Shown: piece after piece, positions 36,494 to 37,184 of the stretch
Layout of the letters: each line of letters starts with the position of its first letter
How positions within the stretch are numbered: the stretch's first letter is position 1
Assembly: GCF_000325665.1 (NCBI RefSeq)
Contig: NC_019908.1
Coordinates: 310,001-374,000, forward strand
DNA: 64,000 bases
Direction: 5' to 3'
Source: Brachyspira pilosicoli P43/6/78
GTDB taxonomy: Bacteria; Spirochaetota; Brachyspiria; Brachyspirales; Brachyspiraceae
Made by a program: the position numbers and the translations under genes
The notes under the pieces: generated by a model
What the model was told of the DNA's origin: nothing
Seen by the model: only the letters and a program-made list of their open reading frames with translations
Database searches by the model: none

Positions 36494-36802
36494 ATGCAAA
36501 GAATAGATTTCGGCTGAGGCTGTTTACCTGATCCTCTAGAAGATGAGGGTATACAAAGAGAGGTAGATAAAATTCTATTATTATCTAACGAAAACTCTGC
36601 TGATATGCTTACTAATTTGCAAAATGCTGTAAATAAATTAAATATTGATTTTCCTATTAAATCTACTGATGATAAAGCTCTTATGTCATATTATGGTGTT
36701 ATGACTTTGCCTGCGCTTATAATAAATGATGAGCTTGTTTCTTATGGTGAAATTCTTTCAGAAGATAAGTTAATGGGCATTTTAAAAGAAAAATTGTTAT
36801 AA
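36494..36802 (+). CDS. Selenoprotein, degenerate thioredoxin-like (UGA = Sec8)
   Basis: ATG at 36494, after AAGAGGTG, opens a frame with a single UGA at 36515-36517: MQRIDFG-U-GCLPDPLEDEG, then an uninterrupted thioredoxin-like domain (YYGVMTLPALIINDELVSYG). A standard reading would start wrongly at 36605 and lose the front. The UGA stands in a GUGC motif, just where the neighbouring paralogue has CGUG, and a hairpin (AUCCUC with GAGGGU around an 8-base loop) follows, placed like a bacterial SECIS. The usual CxxC of the domain is replaced by NENSA, so Sec8 and Cys10 are probably the only redox pair. Total 102 residues. Partner unknown; perhaps the permease or flavodoxin upstream. Confidence 0.72.
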
Positions 36803-36842
36803 TTTATATATAATAAAAAATAAATTTTTAAGTAGAAATTAT

Positions 36843-37184
36843 ATGTCATTTAAAGATCTTTTTTTTGGTAATGGAGGCTGTGGCTGAGGACCTGTTATAG
36901 ATCCCTTCGGTGAAGAGGAAAAAGTACAGGAAGAACCTATTGAGGCAAGAGTAAAAATACTTGGCACAGGCTGTGAAAATTGCAGAAAATTAGAAGAAAA
37001 TACTATAGCTGCAATCGAAGAAGCTAAACTTGATTTGGCTATTAAACATGTAGAAAATATGGAAGATATAGCATTTTATGGTGTTATGTCAACTCCAGCT
37101 TTGGTTTTAGATGATAAGGTTCTTTCTTATGGAAAAGTATTAAGTAAAGAAGAGATCATTGAATTATTGAAAGCTAATTTATAA
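36843..37184 (+). CDS. Selenoprotein, small thioredoxin (redox-active disulfide protein 2-like; UGA = Sec15)
   Basis: The frame from ATG 36843 reads MSFKDLFFGNGGCG-U-GPVIDPFGEEEK with UGA at 36885-36887, then KILGTGCENCRKLEENT, the CxxC active site of the TM0996-type small thioredoxins, and FYGVMSTPALVLDDKVLSYG with the cis-Pro. Downstream of the UGA, CUUC-GGU-GAAG forms a hairpin with GGU in the loop inside a longer CCUGU/ACAGG stem, very like a bacterial SECIS. Length 113 residues. The protein thus has two redox centres, an N-terminal Cys-Gly-Sec and the CxxC. Proteins of this family often serve a DUF318 permease. It lies 40 bp after its paralogue. Confidence 0.8.

Follow-up and report, generated by a model that had tools for sequence, protein, structure and literature searches.

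Santesmasses, Mariotti and Guigo described in 2017 (PMC5330540, 'A novel selenoprotein family', Fig. 7) a small PF13192 protein of Brachyspira with a short extension that holds cysteine (Cys) or selenocysteine (Sec), and the section in which they did so reports a cluster of three genes, one with Cys and two with Sec, in every Brachyspira genome examined. The same section places a selenocysteine insertion sequence (SECIS) after both UGAs, gives the name 'Sec.1' to a protein without the CxxC motif, and points out that the NCBI annotation misses or truncates the genes. Two reviews (PMC9312934 and PMC13188914) list both selenoproteins and give the motif of Sec.1 as CxU and that of Sec.2 as UxC, and the MTH895/ArsE-type family was noted earlier in ars operons (PMC2963123). 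Here we analyse a pair of adjacent thioredoxin-like genes, each with one in-frame UGA, in a window of 64,000 nucleotides from Brachyspira pilosicoli P43/6/78 (G000:C1:310001-374000; the genome is one contig of 2,555,556 bases). Judging from sequence evidence, both genes are very probably selenoproteins in which UGA is read as Sec.

The gene pair and its in-frame UGA codons

Both genes lie on the forward strand. Loci assigned by name to Brachyspira pilosicoli match the second protein with 97-98% identity. The first (P0001, 36494-36802) encodes 102 amino acids when its UGA at 36515-36517 is read as Sec, and the product, a PF13192 protein, begins MQRIDFG-U-GCLPD, with Sec8 and Cys10; the second (P0002, 36843-37184) encodes 113 amino acids with the UGA at 36885-36887 read in the same way, begins MSFKDLFFGNGGCG-U-GPV, with Cys13 and Sec15, and is assigned to TIGR00412. 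Neither frame contains any further UGA, and in both the thioredoxin-like domain is read through after it. The original prediction, made from the letters of this DNA, had placed the UGAs of the two paralogues at 36515 and 36885 within mirrored motifs, G-U-G-C and C-G-U-G, and these coordinates are exact. It had also expected the frames to run cleanly through the domain, as is borne out by the matches to PF13192 (Thioredoxin_3), which exceed the gathering score in both proteins (E 8.1e-11 for P0001 and 1.1e-23 for P0002). Its naming of a TM0996-type thioredoxin needs a minor correction, as the domain appears to be of the MTH895/ArsE type (TIGR00412) and not special to TM0996. Against the TIGR00412 cut-off of 62 bits, P0002 scores 94.3 bits and P0001 42.2 bits. 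The CxxC site, which reads GTGCENC in P0002, is replaced by SNENSA in P0001, as predicted, so that P0001 is devoid of it, and by this missing-CxxC criterion the first gene is the 'Sec.1' of Santesmasses 2017. The motif labels in the reviews and the wording of the 2017 section seem to be crossed, since the CxxC-less protein carries UxC in the sequence. An AF2 model of P0001 (pLDDT 83.7) consists of a thioredoxin fold and a disordered arm, and a structure search with this model returned generic thioredoxin-fold matches alone, among which MTH895 (1ILO) ranked second.

As had been predicted, plain open reading frame (ORF) calling cuts the first gene to 65 amino acids, starting from 36605, and misses the second, for which it yields nothing of at least 50 amino acids. 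Since such calling truncates or misses these genes, annotators of Brachyspira genomes should correct them.

Probable selenocysteine decoding and SECIS-like hairpins

The Sec machinery for which the original prediction proposed a genome search is complete: selA, tRNA-Sec and selB form a group (297.7-301.1 kb in genome coordinates) that precedes the window by about 9-12 kb, the tRNA-Sec match scores 59.9 bits and is over its cut-off, and selD is present in the genome as well. Homologues of the pair were obtained from 24 of the 26 genomes of the genus, and all of them retain the UGA (23/23 for the first gene, 22/22 for the second), which never gives way to TAA or TAG; this rules out chance UGAs. 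In an alignment that includes the paralogues, Cys or Sec is invariant at the UGA column, in agreement with the expectation that homologues would have Cys in place of Sec there. The ratio of nonsynonymous to synonymous substitution rates (dN/dS) over the 25 codons after the UGA is 0.18 in the first gene and 0.41 in the second, where it is 0.27 before the UGA, indicating purifying selection in both.

Folding identified a SECIS-like hairpin after each UGA, both on the forward strand. That of the first gene (36531-36550) begins 13 nucleotides past the UGA and has a stem of 6 base pairs with a loop of 8 nucleotides (UAGAAGAU), whereas that of the second (36902-36919) begins 14 nucleotides past the UGA and has one bulged A and a 3-nucleotide apical loop, the GGU that the original prediction had pointed out when it placed hairpins after both UGAs. 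Across the first-gene homologues the 6-bp stem is paired in 93.8% of cells, and two of its pairs show double-sided C-G to U-A changes; the covariation score of this set was reached by 0 of 500 shuffles, and slid versions of the stem score worse. The second-gene hairpin is of the same class as the CCUUC-AGUU-GAAGG hairpin that follows the UGA in the Sec forms of a third paralogue, described below. We infer SelB-dependent insertion at both UGAs: a SECIS hairpin located just after each UGA would direct the ribosome to insert Sec into a flexible N-terminal arm, which would be of the CxC type (U-G-C in one protein, C-G-U in the other) and carried on a small MTH895/ArsE-type protein with a thioredoxin fold.

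Two observations weigh against Sec decoding. The eight codons that precede the UGA in the first gene have a dN/dS of 0.65, a weak constraint that makes them uninformative, and an Rfam scan of the window at the gathering score gave zero matches. Alternatively, the UGAs might be true stops, with the proteins starting downstream or with the N-terminal part acting as a leader peptide, a view in favour of which the 65-aa ORF obtained by standard calling can be cited. We regard this as highly improbable, given that UGA stands in all 45 of 45 homologues, that purifying selection extends from the UGA to the first downstream start, that paralogues have Cys at the UGA codon, and that the Sec machinery is complete; moreover, in the second gene there is no ATG, GTG or TTG between the UGA and the CxxC, and thus a start after the UGA would deprive the protein of its active site. 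The loss of the CxxC and the existence of C-terminally frameshifted copies (in G009) could instead suggest that the first gene is a decaying pseudogene. Its retention in 23 genomes under a post-UGA dN/dS of about 0.18, the invariant U-G-C motif, the covarying SECIS-like stem and the report of three of these genes in every Brachyspira genome covered by that section of the 2017 paper (PMC5330540) leave very little room for such decay. Taken together, the identity of the pair and its decoding with Sec can be held with high confidence, a confidence that applies to these two points and not to the metalloid role considered below.

A third paralogue, the arm and the arsenic-type neighbourhood

In the genus, a third paralogue adjoins the pair. 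In four genomes, G002, G011, G014 and G020 (loci L085, 6908-7243, and L077, 5858-6202, together with L088 and L094), it contains a UGA (SSCGU), while most of the other genomes that possess the gene have a Cys codon at this column. All 4 Sec forms carry a CCTTC-AGTT-GAAGG hairpin, which is absent from every Cys form examined. The third paralogue has swapped between Cys and Sec, the SECIS-like hairpin being gained or lost along with Sec. Within the arm, Sec.1 has its Sec at position one, Sec.2 and the third paralogue at position two. The genome studied here has two array copies, not three, as do G012, G013, G017 and G021. The array is missing from G001 and G003, yet selA is present in both, and it is therefore dispensable. 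Individual copies show damage elsewhere in the genus: the C-terminus is frameshifted in the Sec.1 copy of G009 and the Sec.2 copy of G002 (L083 and L077), and the third paralogue of G025 (L099) has an early TAA.

We also considered 68 homologous loci from outside the genus, mostly from Clostridia and other spirochaetes. A CxC or CC within a Cys-rich arm was found in 46 of the 66 loci that could be resolved, and none of the 68 has a Sec arm; the in-frame TGAs inspected in additional genomes of spirochaetes were located upstream of the start codon or were the gene's own stop. The original prediction had described a Sec-bearing arm added to the thioredoxin. A Cys-rich arm, however, is general in the family, and thus Brachyspira swapped one Cys of a pre-existing arm for Sec.

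The cluster in the genus follows the order arsR - (acr3) - COG0701 permease - third paralogue - Sec.1 - Sec.2, modified in places by losses and insertions, and acr3, which is often part of it, scores 384.6 bits against TIGR00832 (cut-off 282.8). In the window, an ArsR/SmtB-family regulator (32508-32828, forward strand; NF033788, 87.8 bits, cut-off 55), which is the first cluster gene in most genus genomes, is followed on the same strand by a COG0701-type permease of the SaoE / SO_0444 / ArsP-like superfamily (32860-33901). The permease is split into frames of 198 and 98 amino acids: compared with four close relatives it has an additional A near 33440, and this frameshift may reflect either a genuine mutation or an error of sequencing. 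An in-frame UGA was ruled out as the cause of the split, for the break consists of the one-base insertion followed by TAG. The genome holds only one other permease match, a distant one (27%). Genes for a phosphotransferase system (PTS) lactose/cellobiose IIC component and a DUF7916 protein occupy 33995-36392, between the permease and the pair; both are found at the same place also in G012 and G016, and DUF7916 also in G013. A catalase gene adjoins the pair here, as it does in three relatives. Around the 68 out-of-genus homologues, the same fetched stretch contained arsR in 62, the permease in 61 and acr3 in 12.

Proposed function and comparison with known systems

In defence against trivalent aromatic arsenicals, ArsE proteins work together with the ArsG permease, and a 2019 study reportedly found that the ArsEFG system (ArsE, ArsF and the ArsG permease) gives resistance to roxarsone and nitarsone. 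The Sec/Cys arm may act on a soft metal(loid), for example As(III) or an organoarsenical, by binding or reducing it or by handling its thiol adduct; in the first protein it would do so on its own, in the second together with the domain CxxC, in either case in the service of the neighbouring ArsR-regulated efflux permease of the COG0701 type. The clustering with arsR and the permease, the score of P0002 above the MTH895/ArsE cut-off and the occurrence of the family in ars operons (PMC2963123) point to such a metalloid-handling role, to which we would give roughly even chances. Several features of the locus weigh against it, namely that the permease, though similar to SaoE and SO_0444 transporters, falls below the cut-offs of both families, that it is frameshifted in this genome, and that the PTS and DUF7916 genes separate it from the pair. 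A more elaborate scheme, in which three diverged ArsE-type proteins, bearing either Sec at arm position one or two or else Cys, would form a selenolate-based relay that hands As(III) or an organometal over to a single permease under ArsR control, with the third protein interchanging Sec and Cys by SECIS gain and loss within the genus, is speculative and we think it rather unlikely.

Alternatively, the proteins could be general thiol or selenol oxidoreductases, reducing disulfides or peroxides, with the arsenic-type neighbours being incidental or only receiving electrons from them. Their thioredoxin fold fits this, as do the catalase beside the pair here and in three relatives, the oxidoreductase and peroxiredoxin neighbours taken from STRING in the section on the family (PMC5330540), and the proposal that such proteins supply electrons to arsenate reductase (PMC2963123). 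It is nevertheless arsR and the permease, and not peroxidase genes, that surround the genus loci and about 90% of those out-of-genus homologues that were sampled, and the first protein, having no CxxC, is not a classical thioredoxin. We therefore treat a general oxidoreductase role as possible, though less likely than the metalloid-handling role.

The Tso operon (TsoC, TsoR) and the SAO system (SaoT, SaoE) of Haft and co-workers, as given in PMC13188914, likewise place thioredoxin-like selenoproteins by an ArsR-type regulator or a COG0701-type transporter. Membership in either was rejected, the scores lying far under the cut-offs: 14.9 of 45 bits for TsoC and 47.2 of 115 bits for TsoR, and 101.4 of 325 bits for SaoE with the intact permease of a relative. 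With the MTH895/ArsE proteins of Clostridia and other spirochaetes (TIGR00412; PDB 1ILO, matched at E 4.7e-17) the pair shares the fold, the arsR-permease neighbourhood and a CxC or CCC arm, and P0002 also the family, but Sec was found in none of the out-of-genus loci examined, and P0001, which has no CxxC, scores under the family cut-off at 42.2 bits.

The closest match is the Brachyspira family of 2017, with which the pair has in common the genus, PF13192, the short N-terminal Sec extension, the tandem arrangement, one member without CxxC, a SECIS after each UGA and the mis-annotation. The original prediction had considered this a new selenoprotein arrangement; the same tandem pair, with its N-terminal Sec extension and the loss of one CxxC, was published in that paper (PMC5330540), and it is thus already known since 2017. 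There are differences, in that the paper reports three genes, one Cys and two Sec, where this genome has two, and calls the third gene a Cys homologue, which here takes a Sec form in four relatives; the section on the family, moreover, is silent on the arsR and permease context. In summary, the 24 genomes confirm the selenoprotein family proposed in 2017, place it in a likely setting of arsenic-type detoxification next to an efflux permease, and add to it the arsR - (acr3) - COG0701 permease setting, the generality of the Cys-rich arm, the Cys/Sec exchange in the third paralogue, and a two-gene genome with a frameshifted permease.
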